IMG/VR virus record: IMGVR_UViG_3300047510_000578
Coordinates: 1-24,505 of that record
Reading direction: 5' to 3' (one strand)
Source of the DNA: a virus
DNA: 24,505 nucleotides
The notes below the pieces were generated by a model, which saw nothing but the letters and a program-made list of their open reading frames with translations, had not been told where the DNA came from and did not search any database. Position numbers and translations under genes: made by a program. The stretch's first letter is position 1; every line of letters begins with the position of its first letter. Shown here in pieces: positions 3,971-22,162 of the stretch.

Positions 3971-6900
3971 TTAAACGTCAGCACTTACAATCATACCATG
4001 AGCGGCATGTTCATTGATCAATGATAGTCCACTTTGTTTGTAGACATAGTATATTCTGTGTAGACCCGCACCCAAACTTCTTGACCAGCTTGTATTTACT
4101 GTTTGGTTATCTGCTTGAGTTTCACCATAGAAAGCATCAACTGGAACAAATACACCTGCACCTGCACTAATTTCCCCAGACAAACCAGAACCAGCAGCGT
4201 CAACTGTAGTTCCAACATCAACAGAATCTAGTCCAATTGTGTGATAACAAATTGTGATTGCTGGGCTAGCACCACCGGCGCCTGGGTTGTTGTAAATATC
4301 ACTGAATGAAGTGATTGAAGAATCATCAGCAGTTAAAACTTCAATTCGTGCTTTTGCACCATAGGTTGGAGGATGTCCCCATGCATAGTATTGAGTTGTG
4401 TTCCATGAACTTGCAAACATGAATCTTTGTGAAGATCTATATGTATTATAGAAGTTTGCAATTCCAATAGTTGGAACATCCGCTTCTGCCAAGTTATTGG
4501 CAAGTCTTCCACCGAGTTTAACTGAGCAAGTACCAGCAGTTCCACCAGTCTTAACGAGACCGATGTATCTCTTAGAAGCATCAACTCCACCAACGTTACC
4601 CTTAGTGACAATACCTTGTACTCTACCTCTAGAAGGTGGAGTGTGGAAGTCTGACCATGCAGCATACTCAACTCTTAGATCTGGAGTGGTAACACTACCA
4701 GCATTATAGAGATAAACATCATACACAGTGTTTGCTGTTAGTGCAGTACCACCAGCAAGACCAGTATTTGTTAAAAAGAATTGCTTACTGTTTTCAGGAA
4801 CAGGAACAATAGTCCAAACATTATTCTGATAATCATATAGAGAAATTTCATTACCTCTAAATGGGTGTAAGTACCAGGAAGTTGCATCACTAACATCTAC
4901 AGTTGGATATAAGAATCCAGTTCCAACACCAGGAGCATTCAGTGACATTCTAATATTGGTTAGACCCTTGATACTAGATGCAGTCTTACTGGATAGTGCA
5001 AGTGGTGTAATTGCAATATCTTCAGCAGTACCGAGTGCAGCTTCTGCAGTTGTTGATAGTCTTACGATACCAGCAGCAGTTGTTGAAGCAAGTCCAAGAT
5101 CAGATGTAACACCCGAAATTGCAAGTCTGGTTGAAACAGTCAGAGTTGAGATCGTTGCGTTATCCTGAACCGTCAAACTGGTTGTGGTGAAGGAATTTGC
5201 AAGACCCTGCAACTGACTTGTGAATGCAGACTGAAGTTGCGAAACGTTATTCGTGAGTGACTGGTTAACCTGTGCAATACTATTAGTGATAGAGTTGAAG
5301 GTGTTTGAATAGTCAATCAGACGAGTCTGTGAAGAAGTTCTAACTGCAGGAACGTTAAGAGTAATACTCTCAAAACCACCAGCGTCTTGAATGTTATTAC
5401 CGATGTAGAATTCACCAGAACTGTTAGTACCAGTTGAAGCATTCAAACCACCGTTGAGGTCAAGAGTCTGAGAGATAAACTGTTCTTGTCTTGAAAGTAC
5501 AACTTGGTGGAACTGTGGTAGTGAGGTTGAGTAGTTACCCGAACCATAACCTAGATACTCCCATGTGTGTGCGGAAGCACGAATGATAGAAGGTCTATGT
5601 AGTTTGACGTTAACATCATTAACATCAATTCTTCTTGAAGAAGATCTAATATCCTTACCGTGAGTATTTGCAGTTGTATCGGACTGATATGGTGTAGCAG
5701 TATTTACTGCAGTTGTTGTTCCATTGTATTGGATACCGAACTGAGTAATAACTTTATTAATTGTCTCTCTTGTGAGAGAAGTGAACTGAAGATCTGTACC
5801 AGTTGGAACTGAGATGTTAAGATTCTTCTTATATGTATTATTATTGGACTGAATATCTAGAATTTGAACCTTGGATACAGAAGCACTTGGGTTCCAATCT
5901 GGTTCGTCTTCGTCAATAACTGGATATAGGTAGTTAATATTCTGAGTAACACCATCAACAAGAGTGCTTACACCTTCATAGAGGTAAATTACACCTGGAG
6001 TTGTAGATGTTTCAGTTGTATTCTTAACAGTACCGAGCAAGCAAGTTAGGTAGTAAATACCATCCTGTTCACCGAAGATGTAGTCCTGTTCAGTATCAAT
6101 ACTTAGAATATAGAATACGTCACTTGTATTTCCGCCAGATTGTGGTTGAAGAACAAATCTTCTTTCTGGTGGTTTACAGTTTAGACCTTGTGGTAGAGTA
6201 TACTCAATTCTCCAAAGTAGTTCGGAGTTTGAGATAGAGGTTCTGGTATCAGCAACTCTCTCTACGCCAATATTAGTAGTACCAGCAGTGAAGTAGTACT
6301 GATAGGTTAGTTTACTTGCAACTTCAATTCTAGTATGAAGAACACCGAGAATACCAGATGAGGTATTTGGAGTTGCTCTTCTTGTGAATGTATAAGCATC
6401 CGATGTGCTGGAAGCAAATGTCAATGCAGGACCACTGATGGTTCTAGCGAGTTTGAAGTTATTTCCAGATTTACCAACAATATAATATGGTAAATTTGGT
6501 TGAAGTTGACCTAGGTTATCCTGTGGAGTTGGATATGTTGCAGTTGTACTGATTAGAACTTCATCACCATTAGCAAAGTTGTTTGTTGCTGCGGTGAATG
6601 TTCCGTTAGTTGCAAGTGCAGACGCTGCAACAACGGTAGAACTACCAGCTGTTGGAGCAGTATTCAACTTGAGATATAGATAACCAAACTTTTTACCAGC
6701 ATTTGGACCAGACTGGACGGTTCCCATGATGTCAAAACCATAACCGAGTCTTTCTCCGTTATTGGAGTCATCATAACTTGGGTCAGCAGTTGATGCCGAA
6801 GTTCTGACGGTATCGGTGTAAGTTGTACCAGAAAGATTAAAGAGAAGAGTCTCGTTTGGTCTCTTGGTTAGCAGATATGAATTTGTAGTACCAAATGCAA

Positions 6901-12461: not shown

Positions 12462-13805
12462 TTAGTTTTTACCTTCTAACATAATCTGACCAACTCTGGT
12501 CTCTTTTTCATCTGGAACTGGTTTACCGCCAAATGAATCTCTTGTTAGAGTTATAGTTGTCCTCAGTTCTGATCTATTTAGTATGGTGTGCTTGATAGAA
12601 TTGACAAGATATCTACCACTAACTCTTTCATCTTCTTTGATACTTCCATCTTTATTTTTCTTTGGAGATGGAATAGAAAGATATATTACATTACCACATC
12701 TATTCTCCAGATCTCCAGGAACAGAAATTTCCATCTGGTTATATTCTAAGAAATAATATCTATAGAATGCCTTCTCAAAATTCTTATTAACTTCATCTAT
12801 ATTATCAGTTCCTTCTGTACTTTGGTTTTCATTCCAAGCACCCCAAGTACTTATTGTAGATGGTCTGTAAATAAATCTACTACCTCTCTTTAATAATTCA
12901 ACAGCACCATCAAATGTTTTTGTCTTATATGGTTTTACTTTATCAAGATGACTACTCTTATCCCAGAAGTCATCAGCATTACTTCTGAATACTCTGTAGG
13001 ATCTGTTATTAATATCAACGTATATACATTCATGGGCGAATGCCCCTCTTCTCAAGTCATCATACATATCAAATGCTTTTGGAGATGCATAGTTCATAAC
13101 ACGGAATCTCTCATCAACATCAACTCCAGCTGATTTTTGATTTCCCTGGAAGTAAATATATTTTATCTCTTCATTTGGATATCTTGGTTGATCAAACAAA
13201 ACATCAATTGATCTATATGAGAATCCATCAAAGGTTTCATAGAATAAGAATCCAATAGAGTCTTTCTTGTATTCGGGAACGGATCTTCTTGCTAACCAGA
13301 TTATAGTATCAAATGGTCTCCAGTTTGGTATGTACATCTGGAATGGATACACCGTTGCATCAGGCGTAAATATTTTTTTGGTGGTGAAATTGCTTTGTTC
13401 TAAAATTTCTTTCATCAAAACTTCAGACTTCTTTCCATCTACTCTTTCACAGATTCTAAAGTTTTCATTCCTCAAACCTTCCACCGAAACACAAGTCATG
13501 ATGTAGGTTTGATTCTTTTCCTTCATCGTCCTACCATCAATCTTGTAAATATAATAATTCAAATCATACCATATATTATTGCTTTGAATGATCATTTGAA
13601 TCCTTTCTTCGCCCATGATTGGCAAAGTGTTAATCAAGTTTTCTCCAATATCCTGAATAAAAATTGTACACTGCAAACTGGCAGACAAAACACTCTCGTA
13701 TAAAGTGATCTCTCCGACTAGGTTTTTAATATCAATCCTCTCGGAAAAGTGTGGATATAACCATACTTCCTTTAAAGAAAAATCACCTGGAAACTGATTT
13801 GCCAT
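12462..13805 (-). CDS. gp27-like baseplate hub protein (447 aa)
   Basis: The protein starts MANQFPGDFSLKEVWLYPHF and continues ERIDIKNLVGEITLYESVLS. The 'field of strands plus YESVLSASLQCTIFIQDIGE' opening is typical of hub proteins of the gp27/gpD/VgrG type, which form the trimeric ring binding the gp5 spike. A C-terminal part (VSGRYLVNSIKHTILNRSEL, then RTTITLTRDSFG) also fits, where such proteins end in a tube-like beta-barrel. Length is close to that of T4 gp27 (391 aa). Its ATG overlaps the stop of the preceding tape-measure gene by one base (TAATG), so the two are translationally coupled. Position before the gp5-like gene supports the hub role. Similarity to T4 gp27 itself is weak by eye. 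Confidence 0.7.
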   Translation of the reverse strand: MANQFPGDFSLKEVWLYPHFSERIDIKNLVGEITLYESVLSASLQCTIFIQDIGENLINTLPIMGEERIQMIIQSNNIWYDLNYYIYKIDGRTMKEKNQTYIMTCVSVEGLRNENFRICERVDGKKSEVLMKEILEQSNFTTKKIFTPDATVYPFQMYIPNWRPFDTIIWLARRSVPEYKKDSIGFLFYETFDGFSYRSIDVLFDQPRYPNEEIKYIYFQGNQKSAGVDVDERFRVMNYASPKAFDMYDDLRRGAFAHECIYVDINNRSYRVFRSNADDFWDKSSHLDKVKPYKTKTFDGAVELLKRGSRFIYRPSTISTWGAWNENQSTEGTDNIDEVNKNFEKAFYRYYFLEYNQMEISVPGDLENRCGNVIYLSIPSPKKNKDGSIKEDERVSGRYLVNSIKHTILNRSELRTTITLTRDSFGGKPVPDEKETRVGQIMLEGKN

Positions 13806-16800
13806 TATAGTAGATTAAGGTTTGCTGTTTCTGATACCGTCATATTATTTAGATTGCCCATATGGAATGTACTACCATTATAATTCATAGATTTGTTAAT
13901 GATCATGGTTGGTATTTCAACTCCATGTGCAGCAGACATTTTCTTATCCAAAGTAAACTGACTACTCATAGATGGCAAAGAAGTTGATCTAGAAGGAGTT
14001 GGAGTTGGCAATTTTGGTGCCGGTGGTGCTGGAGTTGATGGTGGAACTGGTGGCGCCGGTGTCGCTGGGCCAGGAGCTCTTCCAGTTAACATAGTGAAAA
14101 GATCTCTCAGCATCCCAATATCCAATGATGGTTCTGGAGCAGATGTAGACTGACCTCCACCACCGCCGGAAGAACTTCCAGATGTACCAGATTCTGTATC
14201 AGATGCTCCTACAGTTCCAGATCCACCCAGTCTAATACCAGCAGCAAAGTTCCATATACCACCCTCCTTTGGAGCTCCACCACTAGTTGATTGGTGTAGG
14301 ATCTTTCCTGGTTTATCCGAAGCAATAGATACGTGAGTAATTGCACCAGGAGTATAATTACCGTAAGTATTCTTATGTAGAACAACATCTCCAGGTTGTA
14401 ATGCAGATTGACTTCTAATAACTGCACCCATATCAGAACCAGCAAAAGATGCTGCAAAGTTTCTTCCACTATATGCAGTTCCGTCTGGGTCTAGGTCTCC
14501 TTTTTGAGTGACCTTTTCTGCTGCAGGATGTCCTGCCATTCCAAGAACCATTCTAACCCATGAAGCACATGGAGGAGTTGCTGGACCTCTTCTTCCTTCA
14601 GCAACTGCTTTCTTTGCGGATTGAATGATACCACCAGATGCAAGTTGAAGCAAACCACCCTCGGAATGTCCAGGAGCAGTATTCTTTACGTCTCTTCCCT
14701 TCTTGTCAAACAATCTTAGTACACCAGGATCTTCTACTTCACCACCTTGAGCCATAAGTGGTACTACTCCTCCACTAGAAGCACCCTTCTTTGGAGTCAT
14801 GTTTGCTTTTCTGAAGTTTGCAGCGAGTGCATCAGTATATTTTGTTCCTTTGGTTCCGAAACCATCAGCACCAACTTGACCAGTGTTAAGCCACTTTTCT
14901 GCTCCTCCCATGCCCTGGTTATGAGCATATCCAAGTATCTCTAGTTTTCTTTCTATTGCAGCATCTTTATATTTCTTATTACCCATCAAATAATTATGAT
15001 TTGCCAAAGTATATCCAGCAAATAATTTCTCTTGTAAGTCTGCATTCTTTCTAAAGGCTTCTCTTGCAGATGCACTATGACCAGGATCTTTTAATCCTGC
15101 TGCACGAGCACCATCTGTTTTTGCAGCAGCACCAAGTTGATATCTTCCATCATAGTGACCACCAGATCCACCAGCAATATCATACTTACCACCAGATTCA
15201 ATACCAGCAATAGTATTTCTGAATATATCCCACTGTTGTTTGTTTGCACCCAGTTTACTCTGCACAAATTCATATGGTGCTCCTTTTGTATTTTCTGCCA
15301 TACCAGGAGCTGGACTTCCACCAGGATCAGTTGATGGAGATGCACCACTACCTCTTCTACCACCCATACCACCACCAGCTGGTTTGTATGGATCTTCTTT
15401 ATCTGTCAAATAATCTGATGGATCTGCCGATTCTTTTGCAGCTGCAGGTGACATGAATAAATCAACACCTTTACCTAGTCCACTAGAAAATGTTTCAACC
15501 GATATTCCAAACACTCTAATGAATGGATTAAACATTTGAAGTGCAAGAGGAGACAACATGGATCCAACAGCACCCATTGATTTAAGAACTGCCATCGTTG
15601 ATCCAATGATGATAGATGCAACAGTCTTGTATGGTTTTAGTGCAATGTCCTTTAATTTATCAATTGGGATAACAGCTTCAGTTCCATGTAGAGTTACATC
15701 ATATCCACTCTCTGGTCCAGAAGCAATACCACCAGTGTTTAATTGAGGTTGATCTTTCTTTCCACCGAATATAGTTTTTCCTAGAGGAGCAATGACAGAA
15801 TCATATAACCACCCAGCAAGAAAATCACCCAATAAACCACCTGCTATTGCACCAAGTACAGTACCTGCACCAGGAACGATACTACCAAGAGCACCAACTA
15901 CAAATGTTCCGATACCAGCACCGATTGCTTTTACTGCAGCTTTATCAATTGGATCTCCCAAGAACATGTTAATTGGGATAGCCAATAAAGTTCCAACTAC
16001 TGGTACTCTTGTTACTAATTTTGCAAGAGGTCTAACTAAAGTCTTGGTTACTTGACCAACAAATGGTTTTAGGAAAGTAAATATATTCTTACCAAATACT
16101 TTCAAGAATACTCTTTGTAGAGCACCTTGCAAACCTTTCTTGAATATACTTGCTGTCTTTGGGAAGATTTGTTTTATTGCATCACCAACTCCAGCTAAAT
16201 TTTTGGAGAACAGTGACTTGAATAAGTCTTTAAAGTTGCTCGCATTCTTTAGTGCCCATTTTATATCACCAATAAGTTTCAGTGGATTTAATACTCTGGT
16301 GAATCCTTTGAATAAGAATACTCCAAGTAATAATTGAAGTCCACCAAATACTCTTTCTAATATAGAACCACCACCAAACAATCTAGTAAATCCTCCAAGA
16401 AGATTACCAACCATTGAACCAACATAGAAATCAAAGAACTTAAAGATACCCATGAAGAGTTTGACAAACCCTTCAACCATATTTCTGTTCTCTGGTTTTG
16501 AAATGAAATCTAAAATTGCATAGGAGATCAGTGCTTTTAGTATTCCAAATAATCCACCACCTACCTTTGCAGCTGCATCAGTTGCAAAACCAGTTAGTAT
16601 ATTCTTACCACCAGAAGGTCTGGATTCCATTCCAGATTCTTCTTTCTTTCTTTTACTCTTCTCTCTCGCTACTCTTTGAGCTTCAGCAAATTTAGATTCC
16701 AGTCGGACTCTTTCTTGTTTTACTTTGAATAATTCATCTGCAACTTTTTTAACTTCAATTAATTTTTCAATGACTCTAAAATTATATCTCTTAACCAAAG

Positions 16801-16990
16801 CTCCGGCGCCACCATCATCTCCCCCTCCACCATTTCGTTTCATCAAAGCAGAATCTTTTCTTGCACTAACATACCCAGACCTTGGCTTTCTCCCAAGAGA
16901 CTTTCTAAAAGCTTCCTTTCTCTGTTCTGGAGTGAGGTACTTTCCAGTTTTTGGATCTACACCAGATTGTGCAATTGAGTTTAAGTCCAT
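13805..16990 (-). CDS. second tape-measure-like protein with lysozyme-like and NlpC/P60-like domains (1061 aa)
   Basis: Residues 65-125 are a charged coiled coil, and residues about 130-510 are hydrophobic, helical and Gly/Ala-rich like a tape measure. They include the segment ISYAILDFISKPENRNMVEG, shared with the upstream paralogue, and the tape-measure motif SGPESGYDVTLHGTEAVIPI (424-443). Residues about 572-730 look like a lysozyme/transglycosylase fold (NTIAGIESGGKYDIAGGSGG, then HYDGRYQLG; Glu598 as possible acid). Residues about 800-915 resemble NlpC/P60: PCASWVRMV with Cys808, LQPGDVVLH, and ITHVSIA with His886. Proline-rich linkers follow. It would help open the cell wall at DNA entry. 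It starts 6 bases after the first copy. Confidence 0.8.
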   Translation of the reverse strand: MDLNSIAQSGVDPKTGKYLTPEQRKEAFRKSLGRKPRSGYVSARKDSALMKRNGGGGDDGGAGALVKRYNFRVIEKLIEVKKVADELFKVKQERVRLESKFAEAQRVAREKSKRKKEESGMESRPSGGKNILTGFATDAAAKVGGGLFGILKALISYAILDFISKPENRNMVEGFVKLFMGIFKFFDFYVGSMVGNLLGGFTRLFGGGSILERVFGGLQLLLGVFLFKGFTRVLNPLKLIGDIKWALKNASNFKDLFKSLFSKNLAGVGDAIKQIFPKTASIFKKGLQGALQRVFLKVFGKNIFTFLKPFVGQVTKTLVRPLAKLVTRVPVVGTLLAIPINMFLGDPIDKAAVKAIGAGIGTFVVGALGSIVPGAGTVLGAIAGGLLGDFLAGWLYDSVIAPLGKTIFGGKKDQPQLNTGGIASGPESGYDVTLHGTEAVIPIDKLKDIALKPYKTVASIIIGSTMAVLKSMGAVGSMLSPLALQMFNPFIRVFGISVETFSSGLGKGVDLFMSPAAAKESADPSDYLTDKEDPYKPAGGGMGGRRGSGASPSTDPGGSPAPGMAENTKGAPYEFVQSKLGANKQQWDIFRNTIAGIESGGKYDIAGGSGGHYDGRYQLGAAAKTDGARAAGLKDPGHSASAREAFRKNADLQEKLFAGYTLANHNYLMGNKKYKDAAIERKLEILGYAHNQGMGGAEKWLNTGQVGADGFGTKGTKYTDALAANFRKANMTPKKGASSGGVVPLMAQGGEVEDPGVLRLFDKKGRDVKNTAPGHSEGGLLQLASGGIIQSAKKAVAEGRRGPATPPCASWVRMVLGMAGHPAAEKVTQKGDLDPDGTAYSGRNFAASFAGSDMGAVIRSQSALQPGDVVLHKNTYGNYTPGAITHVSIASDKPGKILHQSTSGGAPKEGGIWNFAAGIRLGGSGTVGASDTESGTSGSSSGGGGGQSTSAPEPSLDIGMLRDLFTMLTGRAPGPATPAPPVPPSTPAPPAPKLPTPTPSRSTSLPSMSSQFTLDKKMSAAHGVEIPTMIINKSMNYNGSTFHMGNLNNMTVSETANLNLL

Positions 16991-16996
16991 TGGTTA

Positions 16997-19900
16997 TTAG
17001 AGATTAGTTTTAAATACAGACCAATTACCATCTCTTGGTAGAGTTTCTCCAAGACTAGCAGTATCAAATGATTGTTTTACGTTTGATTCCATTTGACCAG
17101 CGGCATTAATAACAGAAACTCCACTACCAGCTCCAGCCCCAAATGCAGAAGTAATAAGGTTCTCTGTCTGTAGTGATTTAAATGCACCTGAGTAATTGGG
17201 GACTGCATTCAATCCTGGTACAAGACTTGTGCCTGCATTAAATGCAACATCAGTTATAGATTTTCCATCTAACAAACCACCCAATGCACTACCGGCTGCA
17301 GAACCAAGTGGTCCGCCAAATATTCCCCCAGCAATACTACCAAGTCCACCAAATAACCCAGAACCTCCACCACCAAACATTCCACCAAATAACCCACCGC
17401 CAGAAGATCCCGATCCTGGGCCGCCATTTAACATAGCATTCAAATCTTTTAACATATCTATAGTTAATGCGGGGGATCCTCCTCCGCCTCCACCACCGCC
17501 TGTGGCTCCACCTCCAGACCCAGCAGTATCTGGTTGAGTTCCATCTTGATTTCCTTGATTTTTAGAATCTCCTGGAGCAATTCCAGCACCTTTAAATTCA
17601 AAGTGTCCACCATGAGATCCTGGATAATCATTTGGAACCCAACCATACTTAGATCCGTTTGCACGTATCCATGAACCAGAAGATCCATGAATATCCATCG
17701 CTACACCATACATGTGTTTTGAACCACTGGCGCCACCGACAGCTTTATTTTTGGCAGGACTTCTCTTACTACTTGCAACATCAGATCCCTTAACCTTTCC
17801 ACCAGATGCAGTCATCATCTGAGCAAATGCTTGTGCTGCTGGTTGAGAGAAAACAATTGGTCTTCCCTGTTGATCCGATGCGCCCTTAATAGTATATCCT
17901 GGGCCAGTATCCCATACACCATCAGTCTTAACGACTCCACCAGAAGCATAAGGAAGTGCATATCCACCGTTCTTAGCTTCTCTGATTCTTCTACCAACCA
18001 ATCCACCATTACTTCTAGTGGATGGAGTATCAAATGGAATCACAAAAGCACTGGATACACTTCCACCAGAAGCTTTCTTGAATCCAACCCACTCAGTTCC
18101 ATGACCAATAAATGAAGTTGATTTTCCTCCATCAAGAGATACTGGATAACCTGACTGTGGACCAGTGATCCATCCACCTTCCTTCTTAGATGGCATAAAC
18201 TTTTTGTATGCGCCAGTCTTATGAACAGTCCAGGCATTCCATCCCTGACTATCCTTAATCATCTTAGCAGCCTTGGCGTTGGTTGCAGGATCAAACAGTT
18301 GTTCGTTTGATGAAATACCTAACTGTTTTCTTCTTGCAGGTCCAAGGTTTCCGATCATATTGATCTGCCAGAGACCATATGAATTATCTGGCGGAGTAGA
18401 ATTATGAGCTCTTGGATTTCCAGAAGATTCTGCCATCGCAATTGCAGCCATTCTGGATGCATCTGCATCATTAAATCCTGCATTTCTTGCGTATGTTTTT
18501 AATTGTTCAAAATTAAGAGAACCACCTGGCGCACCTGGAGCAGTTCCACCAGGAGTCCCACCAGGAGAAGATCCATCAGCAGCAGGAGATGAACCATCAG
18601 AACCAGTACTGGATGGATATGGAGACTCTTTTCCAGTCAACATAGAAAACAAATTTCCAACATTACCAGAGTTTACATCTTCTTTTTTTCCTGCAGTTTG
18701 TGAAGTAGATCCACCAGTCTTTGACTCTGGTTTCTTTTCTGTTTCTTCCTTCTTTTCTTTTGGTGCCTTTCCAGATAGTACACCAGCAATTGATGGTGGT
18801 AAATCAAACTTGGAAATAATACTCTGTAGTAATGGATTTATAAATGGACCTACACCAGGAATCTTACCAATGGTATTCATGGTAAGTGCAATTAATCCTG
18901 CACCAACCAACTTGAATGGCATCGTCAATAAATCCATAAACATCTTGGATGTCTTCTTGACTGAAGACAGTATTCCAGATGCTTCAGCAATATCATCTAA
19001 TGGTTCAACAGAAACTCCAGACCCACCTTTGGTTGGACCGACTACACCACCTTCTCTTAGTTGCGGTTTATCTTTATTTCCACCACCAAACATCCCACCA
19101 ACCATATTGGTGAGAGCACCAATAGGATTCAATACCGCACTTGCAATACCTTTGATTGCATTACCAGCTTGAGCTATTGGATTTGGTTTTTGTTCTCCAG
19201 CTCCTGGTTGTCCTGTTGGGGAGATACTTGCAGCTTCTGTCTCTTGATCTTTTTTATCTCCACCAAGACCGAAAAGGTTCTTTATACCATCTTGAATTAT
19301 CTTTCCAGCAGCATCAGCTAATCCGAACGTTAGGAAGTTGATAAGTGAAGATAGTATATCTGGGATTACCTTTAATAAAGTTTTTGGAATGTTCAATATC
19401 CCATCAATAAACTCCTTGGGATTTGTCAACCACTTCAAAGATATCAAATCAATGAGAGACTTCGCCAAGTCCATAAACAAATTCAATCCACCACCAAGAA
19501 TAGATTGAATTAATTTTGTAAATGGACCAATGAATCTTTCATGAAGTAGTTGGAACATCTTAACTACATTCATGAAGAACTGGATAGTTCCTTGAATTAA
19601 TTTTTTATTCTCTGGTTTTGATAACCAATCTAATATTTTATACTTTATAAATGTACCTACTAAATTTTTTATGAAGTCAAATATACCACCAAAAGCTTTA
19701 GTTGCTTTCTTAACTATTGGATTCTTTTCTGCTTTGTCGGATTCTTTTTTAGATTTCTCTTGTTGATCTTGCTCAGAAGTTCTTGCGTCTTGTTCCGAAG
19801 ATCTTGCAAAACTTAATACTTGATTTCTTACTGCTTCTAAAGATTCTCTTTCCAATTCCAACATTCGTTGGAGGATTCTTTTTATCTCATCTAACCTATC

Positions 19901-20356
19901 AACAACCTGATCTCCACTCTTAGTGATCGCAGTTGATTCTCTACTTGTTAATGGACTACCACCGAATGGAACTATAGCACCTCCTCCTCCATCTCCAGCA
20001 CCAGTTGCTCCTTTGACTGCACTAGCGAATCCTTCTACTACACTTACCTTTACTGGTTCTATTGTCTGATCTACATCTGTACCACCCATGCCGCCGGCAC
20101 CACGGCGGCCCCCACCGAGAGCTGTACCCAGAAGGTCATCACCCAAGTTTCTAACGAGTCTCCCAGCACCCCTGACACCTGTACGAAGTCCCCTCGCAAT
20201 ACCTGCCCTGGCTCCTCTACCGATCCCTGCTCTCGCCCCCATACGGACACCAGCACGAGCGACACCGCGAGACGCCATTCCTAGACCGGCTCTACCAGCG
20301 GCCATTAATCCTGTTCTTCCCAGTAGAGCCCCAATTCCTAGAAGTGGTACTGCCAT
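16997..20356 (-). CDS. first tape-measure-like protein with lysozyme-like and M15-like domains (1119 aa)
   Basis: The first 90 residues are an Arg/Gly/Ala-rich repeat region. Residues 150-215 are a coiled coil. Residues about 216-530 are hydrophobic and helical with IKYKILDWLSKPENKKLIQG, matching the next gene. Residues about 614-722 form a lysozyme/SLT-like domain: MAAIAMAESSGNPRAHN with Glu643, then NSYGLWQIN. Residues about 830-922 resemble an M15 D,D-peptidase: SKHMYGVAMDIHG (His881, Asp888) and GGHFEF (His918). The usual Asp/Glu three residues before the last histidine is a histidine here. The role is probably tail length and wall penetration. It starts one base after the end of the gp26 frameshift extension, fitting the chaperone-then-tape-measure order of tailed phages. 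Confidence 0.8.
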   Translation of the reverse strand: MAVPLLGIGALLGRTGLMAAGRAGLGMASRGVARAGVRMGARAGIGRGARAGIARGLRTGVRGAGRLVRNLGDDLLGTALGGGRRGAGGMGGTDVDQTIEPVKVSVVEGFASAVKGATGAGDGGGGAIVPFGGSPLTSRESTAITKSGDQVVDRLDEIKRILQRMLELERESLEAVRNQVLSFARSSEQDARTSEQDQQEKSKKESDKAEKNPIVKKATKAFGGIFDFIKNLVGTFIKYKILDWLSKPENKKLIQGTIQFFMNVVKMFQLLHERFIGPFTKLIQSILGGGLNLFMDLAKSLIDLISLKWLTNPKEFIDGILNIPKTLLKVIPDILSSLINFLTFGLADAAGKIIQDGIKNLFGLGGDKKDQETEAASISPTGQPGAGEQKPNPIAQAGNAIKGIASAVLNPIGALTNMVGGMFGGGNKDKPQLREGGVVGPTKGGSGVSVEPLDDIAEASGILSSVKKTSKMFMDLLTMPFKLVGAGLIALTMNTIGKIPGVGPFINPLLQSIISKFDLPPSIAGVLSGKAPKEKKEETEKKPESKTGGSTSQTAGKKEDVNSGNVGNLFSMLTGKESPYPSSTGSDGSSPAADGSSPGGTPGGTAPGAPGGSLNFEQLKTYARNAGFNDADASRMAAIAMAESSGNPRAHNSTPPDNSYGLWQINMIGNLGPARRKQLGISSNEQLFDPATNAKAAKMIKDSQGWNAWTVHKTGAYKKFMPSKKEGGWITGPQSGYPVSLDGGKSTSFIGHGTEWVGFKKASGGSVSSAFVIPFDTPSTRSNGGLVGRRIREAKNGGYALPYASGGVVKTDGVWDTGPGYTIKGASDQQGRPIVFSQPAAQAFAQMMTASGGKVKGSDVASSKRSPAKNKAVGGASGSKHMYGVAMDIHGSSGSWIRANGSKYGWVPNDYPGSHGGHFEFKGAGIAPGDSKNQGNQDGTQPDTAGSGGGATGGGGGGGGSPALTIDMLKDLNAMLNGGPGSGSSGGGLFGGMFGGGGSGLFGGLGSIAGGIFGGPLGSAAGSALGGLLDGKSITDVAFNAGTSLVPGLNAVPNYSGAFKSLQTENLITSAFGAGAGSGVSVINAAGQMESNVKQSFDTASLGETLPRDGNWSVFKTNL

Positions 20357-20357
20357 A

Positions 20358-20546
20358 CTATCCGTTCATCCTTTGTTTTTGTCTATCGTTTTCTTCTTTG
20401 ATGTATTCCATCAACATAGTAACGTACACTTCTCTTTCCCAAGGAATCATATTTTCAAGTTCAGTTAGACTGTACTTGTGGTGCTGCATGAGAGCAAAAT
20501 TTACTGTATAGAAATTTTCAATACTCTCATGAGCTAGTGCTATACG
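20358..20546 (-). CDS. -1 frameshift extension of gp26 (62 codons; G/GT-type chaperone tail)
   Basis: This frame is open from just before the gp26 stop to TAG at 20358-20360. It encodes RIALAHESIENFYTVNFALM, then QHHKYSLTELENMIPWEREV and YVTMLMEYIKEENDRQKQRM-NG. The only internal ATG (20489) would give 43 residues and has no ribosome site before it. The reading frame upstream of that ATG is open back to the slippery site, so the natural route is a -1 shift from gp26. The 'HHKYSLTELENMIPWEREVY' part looks like the helical tail of lambda gpGT-type tail assembly chaperones. In T4 the gene at this place is 51, needed for hub assembly; equivalence is possible but not shown. The fusion would be 298 aa. 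Confidence 0.75.
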   Translation of the reverse strand, partial: RIALAHESIENFYTVNFALMQHHKYSLTELENMIPWEREVYVTMLMEYIKEENDRQKQRMNG

Positions 20547-21253
20547 AAAAAAGACGCAAGACCCTCAATTACAATCTCGTTCTCCTTTCCAGTTTCTGGA
20601 TTGGTGACAGTAATAGTATGAGAAAGTTTTGGCATTGTTTCAAAGAATTTTTGAACACTCAAGAATTGTTGAGTACTCATCTCTTCTAAGAATGCAAGAA
20701 GTTCTTTTTTAGAAAAGTTACCAGCTTCATATACATCTTCACCCTCTACGATTTGAGAGATACATGATGCAGCAATTTCAAAAACATCATCAACATTAGA
20801 AGTTTGGGAGATGTTGTTCTTTACAAATAGTTCCATACTTGGATACTTCATCACCATGGAAACACCACCACCAAGATCAATGATATTAGAATGTTCCTTA
20901 TCTTTCTGAACTTTGATATCATCAATATCAATAGAGAATGGAACAACAGTCACTCCATCATCTGGACATGTTACGTTAAGTTCAATCTCTTCACCAACAG
21001 ACTTACCACGAATGTTTAAGAAGAGATATTCAATGTCAAAAAGAGCAAGATCTTCAACCTTAATCTTTGCGGTCTGAATACAATTCTTCAGAATCACTTT
21101 AACCGCTTCAGTCATCTGTTTTTCATCTTCAGATTCCATAGCAAGTAGAAGAATTTTTTCTTCTTTAACTAGGAATGGGCGATACTTAATCTTTTGTCCT
21201 GTTGATGGAAGTTCCAACTCATATGTTGGCGTAACAAGTTTTGGTAAAGGCAT
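20540..21253 (-). CDS. 26: gp26-like baseplate hub assembly / tail chaperone protein (237 aa)
   Basis: The protein starts MPLPKLVTPTYELELPSTGQ, then KIKYRPFLVKEEKILLLAME and further SEDEKQMTEAVKVILKNCIQ. This is the typical N-terminal pattern of the T4 gp26 base plate family. It continues with FDIEYLFLNIRGKSVGEEIE and later CISQIVEGEDVYEAG and LSVQKFFETMPKLSHTI, all family-like. Length is near T4 gp26 (208 aa). A strong AAGGAG ribosome site lies 6 bases before the ATG, and a late promoter overlaps the end of the preceding gene. In T4 this protein acts in hub assembly; in this gene order it would chaperone the tape measures. Its last codons carry a slippery site leading to a frameshift extension. 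Confidence 0.85.
   Translation of the reverse strand: MPLPKLVTPTYELELPSTGQKIKYRPFLVKEEKILLLAMESEDEKQMTEAVKVILKNCIQTAKIKVEDLALFDIEYLFLNIRGKSVGEEIELNVTCPDDGVTVVPFSIDIDDIKVQKDKEHSNIIDLGGGVSMVMKYPSMELFVKNNISQTSNVDDVFEIAASCISQIVEGEDVYEAGNFSKKELLAFLEEMSTQQFLSVQKFFETMPKLSHTITVTNPETGKENEIVIEGLASFFV
20546..20552 (-). other. -1 programmed frameshift slippery site T TTT TTC
   Basis: In the gp26 frame the codons are TCT TTT TTC GTA TAG, giving the classic X XXY YYZ heptamer T TTT TTC. A TGA in the -1 frame lies just upstream and the 0-frame TAG just downstream, so the shift window is only about nine codons long. A GAGGG sequence at 20562-20566, 9 bases upstream of the heptamer, could act as a stimulatory Shine-Dalgarno-like element, as in dnaX. 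Confidence 0.75.
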
Positions 21254-21289: not shown

Positions 21290-21297
21290 TATTTATC
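21290..21297 (-). promoter_or_regulatory. late promoter GATAAATA for gp26 operon
   Basis: The minus strand reads GGTTGATAAATAAC, matching the late promoter element except for its variable first base. It overlaps the TGA stop of the gp54-like gene and lies 36 bases before the gp26 ATG. It would drive gp26, both tape measures and the hub genes. Confidence 0.7.
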
Positions 21298-22162
21298 AAC
21301 CATTGACAGCATCAAGAATGTTGCCAAAGACACTACCAGATCCAGTCAATGCAGTTGTGGTATAAGTTTCATATTCAAACGTAACAGATAATTTTGCCAA
21401 AGATGATGCACCAGAATTTAAAGGAACCGATGCAATGTTTGAAGGGAATGCTTTGAACATTCTAGTAGAATGAACTGCAGTTGCTTTATAGAACCTGGAC
21501 AGTTCATCTCCTTCACCTGGAGCTTGAGGAAAATCTGGAATGATTTCTTTCTTAGTAAATGCTTTCAACTTAACATTACTAAAGTTCTTTTTGCTGCTAG
21601 GTGGTTTTTCATATTTGATTACGATAATATCAATTGCATAATCATCACGATATCTGGTTCTAAGTCTATGATTAATATTATTTGGATTGACCAAAAATTG
21701 TTGTACTGAACTTGTGTCTACATTATTATCAACTGCATATCCATACATGAAAGCAGTCCAGATATCAAATACTTTTTTGATTGTTGAATTGGCATCCATG
21801 ATAAATGAAAAGTTTGTTTCACTAAAAACAGAACCATATGCATACTTTAATTGTGGAGTATTGTTAATTCTATACTCACCTGTTGTCATTTGAATGCCTG
21901 GAATTGAACACTCGTCTGTATACAACCTCATCAGACGAGTTGTATCACTTACAGTTCCTCCGAAGTCAGAACTAAATTTACTAACAATTGAAGAGTACAG
22001 TGGAGAGTTTGCATTGATTTCAAAAATTACATCATAAAAGTTATTGATACTGAAACCATAAGTTTGTACCGCAGTTTTAAATTCTGCGTAGTTGGTCATT
22101 TCAATATCACTGTTTAAAACAGAAATATTATATGGATTAAAGATATCGTTTATTGTACTCAT
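21296..22162 (-). CDS. gp54/tail-tube-like baseplate protein (288 aa)
   Basis: The protein begins MSTINDIFNPYNISVLNSDI. Residues about 80-142 contain LYTDECSIPGIQMTTGEYRI, then NTPQLKYAYGSVFSETNFSF and IKKVFDIWTAFMYGY. This 'CSIPG ... Y..G.VFSETNFSFIMD ... F..W' pattern is typical of T4-like tail-tube-fold proteins (gp19, gp48, gp54). C-terminal strands (LAKLSVTFEYETYTTTAL) close the barrel. The length fits T4 gp54 (320 aa), which starts tube growth from the baseplate; a second gp48-type protein is encoded divergently, so gp54 is the best guess. The start overlaps the preceding stop by ATGA. I separate it from gp19, the main tube protein, by its length. Confidence 0.7.
   Translation of the reverse strand: MSTINDIFNPYNISVLNSDIEMTNYAEFKTAVQTYGFSINNFYDVIFEINANSPLYSSIVSKFSSDFGGTVSDTTRLMRLYTDECSIPGIQMTTGEYRINNTPQLKYAYGSVFSETNFSFIMDANSTIKKVFDIWTAFMYGYAVDNNVDTSSVQQFLVNPNNINHRLRTRYRDDYAIDIIVIKYEKPPSSKKNFSNVKLKAFTKKEIIPDFPQAPGEGDELSRFYKATAVHSTRMFKAFPSNIASVPLNSGASSLAKLSVTFEYETYTTTALTGSGSVFGNILDAVNG

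Follow-up and report, generated by a model that had tools for sequence, protein, structure and literature searches.

Does translation of the gp26 gene in this marine T4-like phage always end at its stop codon, or do some ribosomes carry on in another frame and join a second protein sequence to it? The window (the whole stretch of viral DNA that we analysed: 24,505 nt, from IMG/VR record IMGVR_UViG_3300047510_000578) has its gp26 gene on the minus strand, where the window's other features described below also lie. The gene (20540..21253; PF12322, T4_baseplate) specifies 237 amino acids in the zero frame, the putative short form (TAC-N, G-like) of a tail assembly chaperone; it matches the Pfam family with an E-value of 2.5e-73 and PHROG 150 with 2.3e-80, and the AlphaFold2 model of the protein has a pLDDT of 87.

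The 3′ end of gp26 reads GAG GGT CTT GCG TCT TTT TTC GTA TAG. It contains the candidate slippery heptamer T TTT TTC (20546..20552), one codon ahead of the zero-frame stop TAG (20540..20542), and a Shine-Dalgarno-like GAGGG (20562..20566), a probable stimulator, separated from the heptamer by 9 nt. The −1 frame is closed by a TGA (20565..20567) 4 codons 5′ of the heptamer; the gp51-like extension encoded in it (20358..20552) runs for 62 amino acids past the two phenylalanines of the heptamer to a TAG at 20360-20358, a single base away from the next ATG, at 20356. It would form the C-terminal part of a gp26-gp51 fusion of 298 amino acids.

A first-pass annotation, made from the letters of the window alone, had proposed a programmed −1 frameshift here. 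Its heptamer and the GAGGG 9 bases upstream are where it had placed them (20552-20546 and 20566-20562), as are the TGA a few codons before the heptamer (20567-20565) and the 62-codon open frame ending at 20358, one base before an ATG, and the length of about 298 residues that it had expected of the fusion is correct. It had counted one internal ATG in the −1 frame, lacking a ribosome site. There are five, and the frame has no start codon ahead of the first of them, which lies at 20489-20487 (codon 22 when counting from the heptamer's first F); the missing ribosome-binding site did hold for the first ATG of relatives, as described below.

Relatives were fetched with gp26 as the query (L019-L098) and, separately, with the extension (L099-L178), and annotated phages were added. 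Whole-family alignments were too diverse to scan the collection with, and narrower alignments worked. Removal of identical junctions left 163 loci, all outside the T4-type group. Among the gp26-family relatives, where the first-pass annotation had suggested looking for conservation, gp26 has a T TTT TTN heptamer at its 3′ end and the −1 frame encodes the extension in 163 out of 163 non-redundant junctions (79/79 from the gp26 query, 68/68 from the extension query and 16/16 others), which do not amount to 163 independent lineages because the relatives from viral contigs are mostly marine cyanophage-like. The heptamer is TTTTTTC in 154 of the 163, and the zero-frame stop has the same spacing as in the window in 148. 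The arrangement is found in Kyanoviridae, in Schizotequatrovirus and other Straboviridae, in Emdodecavirus, in Pootjesviridae, in an Aeh1-like Aeromonas phage and in a Desulfovibrio phage. Beyond the 163, Citrobacter phage Ci1 and Vibrio phage EniLVp02 agree, with T TTT TTC, as does a Methylophilales phage, the sequence of which, on manual reading, has a longer T run.

T-rich genomes produce such runs, and two consecutive phenylalanines at the end of a gene might by chance lie beside an open frame that is not used. Yet TTTTTTN occurs in frame at 14 out of 33,206 other gp26 codons, as against 144 out of 144 diverged relatives at the junction site, and the feature is thus far beyond chance. The conservation data refute a chance origin, to which we give practically no credence, and the −1 frame, moreover, holds a recognised protein family.

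The choice of codons around the heptamer, calculated for the 144 junctions below 85% identity, is strongly biased. The codon preceding the TTT of the heptamer ends in T in all 144, while the residue that it specifies varies (S, D, N, A or G). The first F of the heptamer is always TTT (144/144; background 71%), and TTC is used for the second in 134 of 141 cases (background 29%). Further upstream, glutamate is specified by GAG in 87 of 118 cases (background 30%) and glycine by GGG in 42 of 144 (background 5%), and these preferences create a GGAGG at 10 nt or a GAGGG at 9 nt upstream of the heptamer in 87 of the 144 junctions. Pairing with the anti-Shine-Dalgarno sequence upstream of the heptamer is stronger than in synonymous-codon shuffles (z −13.7).

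A second candidate stimulator lies downstream. In the window, a stem-loop is predicted at 20483..20534, starting 11 nt after the heptamer (MFE −18.9 kcal/mol; z −3.47; 0 of 200 shuffles). In the relatives, the 60 nt that begin 9 nt past the first base of the heptamer form more stable folds than their synonymous shuffles (z −2.45), a signal that fades to about −0.4 further downstream. RNAalifold yielded no consensus fold for the pooled downstream sequences of the relatives. A stimulatory stem is likely, by these predictions, to follow the heptamer, its form varying since no single fold is common to the relatives. GTATAG and CTATAC in the window could also pair into a pseudoknot, a candidate that we dropped because the heptamer is touched by one of the arms.

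The site being a T run, it could be RNA polymerase, rather than the ribosome, that slips on it. Transcriptional slippage favours longer runs. Here, the run is exactly six in 137 out of 144 junctions, and TTC is chosen over TTT for the second F by 134 to 7, opposite to the background preference for TTT. The X XXY YYZ register, the Shine-Dalgarno-like element at 9–10 nt and the downstream fold all fit slippage by the ribosome, and we judge the transcriptional alternative very improbable.

Ribosomal frameshifting also has to be weighed against the possibility that gp51 is a small protein made on its own, from an internal ATG, once translation of gp26 has terminated (by translational coupling or reinitiation). 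The public annotation of P-SSM2, S-PM2 and others does have a separate gene, and the first ATG stands at codon 5 (counted from 0), near the gp26 stop, in 67 of the 144 relatives. Across the relatives, however, the position of that ATG ranges from codon 3 to codon 34, the protein sequence upstream of it is still conserved, and the first ATGs are essentially devoid of a Shine-Dalgarno sequence (anti-Shine-Dalgarno energy ≤ −6 in 0–3%). In 143 of 144 relatives, the −1 frame has no ATG, GTG or TTG ahead of the heptamer. In the 33 relatives that have no start until codon 16, extension codons 4–15 have a pN/pS of 0.24 in the −1 frame, the other two frames giving 1.29 and 1.37; these values are to be read as a contrast between frames and not as a formal test, because the compared pairs are not independent. 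This points to purifying selection on the −1 frame in codons that precede any start. An internal start would, in addition, leave unexplained the invariant heptamer and the T-ending codon before it, and in T4, gp51 has the extension domain fused to a gp26-like domain. Altogether, we hold a separately started gp51 to be very improbable; the case for frameshifting over a separate gene is made most strongly by the pre-start pN/pS, the scarcity of upstream starts and the first ATGs without Shine-Dalgarno sequence. Programmed −1 frameshifting at gp26, as the first-pass annotation had it, is thus strongly supported by comparative evidence of three kinds: conservation, codon choice and coding selection ahead of any start.

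The extension that would be reached by frameshifting matches PHROG 634, “baseplate hub assembly catalyst” (gp51), with an E-value of 4.1e-29 (profile positions 56-116 of 121), and also the long end of the gp26 family PHROG 150 (E 1.9e-7). What had been described at first as a hidden GT-like tail extension is, therefore, gp51 itself and not just a GT-like tail; the G/GT-like reading behind that description stands, given the gene order and the family links. A tblastn search with the extension matched 587 phage records, mostly of cyanophages, followed by phages of Vibrio, Aeromonas, Sinorhizobium and others. Among phage records, a Megablast search brought up no close relative. None of the records that we opened shows gp51 joined to gp26 in its annotation, which gives either a short separate gene or no gp51; the gp51 entries that we inspected in public marine phage genomes, separate or missing as annotated, should be joined to gp26. 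The extension query hit two places in Sinorhizobium phage phiN3, which could mean that there is a second gp51-like sequence elsewhere in that genome.

Directly upstream of gp26 lies the gene for the tail tube protein (21296..22162; PHROG 45, tail tube, E 1.4e-23), and downstream of the extension lies a large ORF of 1119 amino acids (16997..20356), the tape-measure role of which is deduced from its position, its best PHROG matches being families of the virion endolysin type. The order in the window is, thus, tail tube, gp26, extension and the large ORF in the tape-measure position. This ORF is adjacent to another one of 1061 amino acids (the two span 13805-20356), also in tape-measure position, and both match the virion endolysin-type PHROGs 1200 and 5867; they could be a tape-measure/lysozyme pair or a duplication. 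The extension and the large ORF nearly abut in the window; in several relatives (L003, L010 (phiN3), L014 and L183), a small extra ORF is situated between the two.

We consider it highly probable that a tail assembly chaperone of the lambda G/GT type is made from this locus in two isoforms, by means of programmed −1 frameshifting at gp26. The G/GT-type reading is supported by gene order and family links. Compared with the PDB, the AlphaFold2 model of gp26 had its highest probability, among the matches listed, with the HK97 chaperone 2ob9_B, a weak match (0.66; E 1.5); a sequence profile search of the PDB returned chance kinase matches only. In T4, both gp26 and gp51 are catalogued as chaperones of hub assembly; the phage needs gp51 to assemble, and the finished particle does not contain it (PMC3004832), which fits the chaperone reading.

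Under the proposed mechanism, most ribosomes would end at the gp26 stop and release the 237-residue short form. A minority would be paused by the GAGGG 9 nt upstream and by the stem-loop downstream (both presumed pausing elements), slip back by one base on T TTT TTC and continue in the −1 frame to complete the gp26-gp51 fusion of about 298 residues. By analogy with gpG and gpGT of lambda (PMC5009743), the short form of gp26 would coat the tape measure protein, and the extension in the fusion would recruit tail tube subunits.

In T4-type phages, the same two products appear to come from two genes. T4, the RB49-like phage W115, Klebsiella phage 15882-3-2 and Aeromonas phage Aes508 have a divergent gp26/gp51 pair, where gp26 is about 200–210 amino acids and lacks a slip site (its gene has TTC TTT), and gp51 is about 250 amino acids; in T4 itself, the separate, divergently oriented genes encode 208 and 249 amino acids, respectively. 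In profile comparisons, T4-type gp51 matches gp26 over residues 5-199 (probability 97.9%; E 5e-13) and the −1 extension with its C-terminus (96.3%; E 1.5e-9), and it matches T4-type gp26 with a probability of 98.5, while controls with column-shuffled and reversed profiles gave at most 6.2%. Since gp51 matches gp26 plus the extension in one frame, T4 gp51 corresponds to the joined protein in a single frame. The suggestion of the first-pass annotation that the frameshift is perhaps used “in place of a separate gene 51” was right in substance: T4-type phages appear to replace frameshifting by a short gp26 and a long gp51. T4 gp26 also carries an annotated internal in-frame product, 26′ (4803-5090), a further short form of this chaperone-like gene.

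G-T frameshifting is widely conserved, with T4 as the exception (Atkins et al. 2016, PMC5009743), and the gp51 of cyanophages and vibriophages has been reported, without explanation, to lack the first ~200 residues of T4 gp51 (Sullivan et al. 2010, PMC3037559). Both observations would be accounted for if those phages encode gp51 as the −1 tail of gp26 and T4 has the joined form as a gene of its own. We think it likely that frameshifting at gp26, with a doubly stimulated T TTT TTC, is a widespread and perhaps ancestral state in the T4 superfamily, that a gene duplication in the T4-type lineage replaced it by a short gp26 and a long gp51 encoded in one frame, and that the gp51 published as “truncated” in cyanophages and vibriophages is nothing more than the −1 tail of gp26. 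It thus becomes testable whether the two-gene and the frameshift versions can substitute for each other.

The novelty is limited, in that the chaperones, the two-gene arrangement and the poly-T slip sites in T4-like phages are already known. Tail assembly chaperones of T4-like phages are credited to Vladimirov, Gautam and Davidson 2022 (PMID 34826709), a study that is cited in a passage of the PRFect paper (PMC10885494) for the arrangement of a short gene and a long fusion gene, and in a passage of the Adele paper (PMC12846349) for poly-T slip signals in T4-like TAC-N genes. Added here are the extent to which the site is conserved, a pair of candidate stimulators and the connection with the truncated gp51, any of which may also be contained in Vladimirov et al. 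2022.

The order of the genes in the window is as in lambda V-G-T-H. The slip site of lambda differs from T TTT TTC, and gp26 bears no detectable sequence relation to gpG. With T4, the window shares homology in both parts of the fusion, its gp26 being homologous to T4 gp26 and its −1 extension to the C-terminus of T4 gp51, but in T4 the two forms are separate genes, a gp26 that lacks a slip site and a gp51 that has the gp26-like domain and the extension in one frame. The TAC of Pakpunavirus Adele (PMC12846349) resembles the system described here in its conserved poly-T −1 site and in a downstream frame mis-annotated as a separate gene; it differs in belonging to the Vandenendeviridae and in its motif, GTTTTT.
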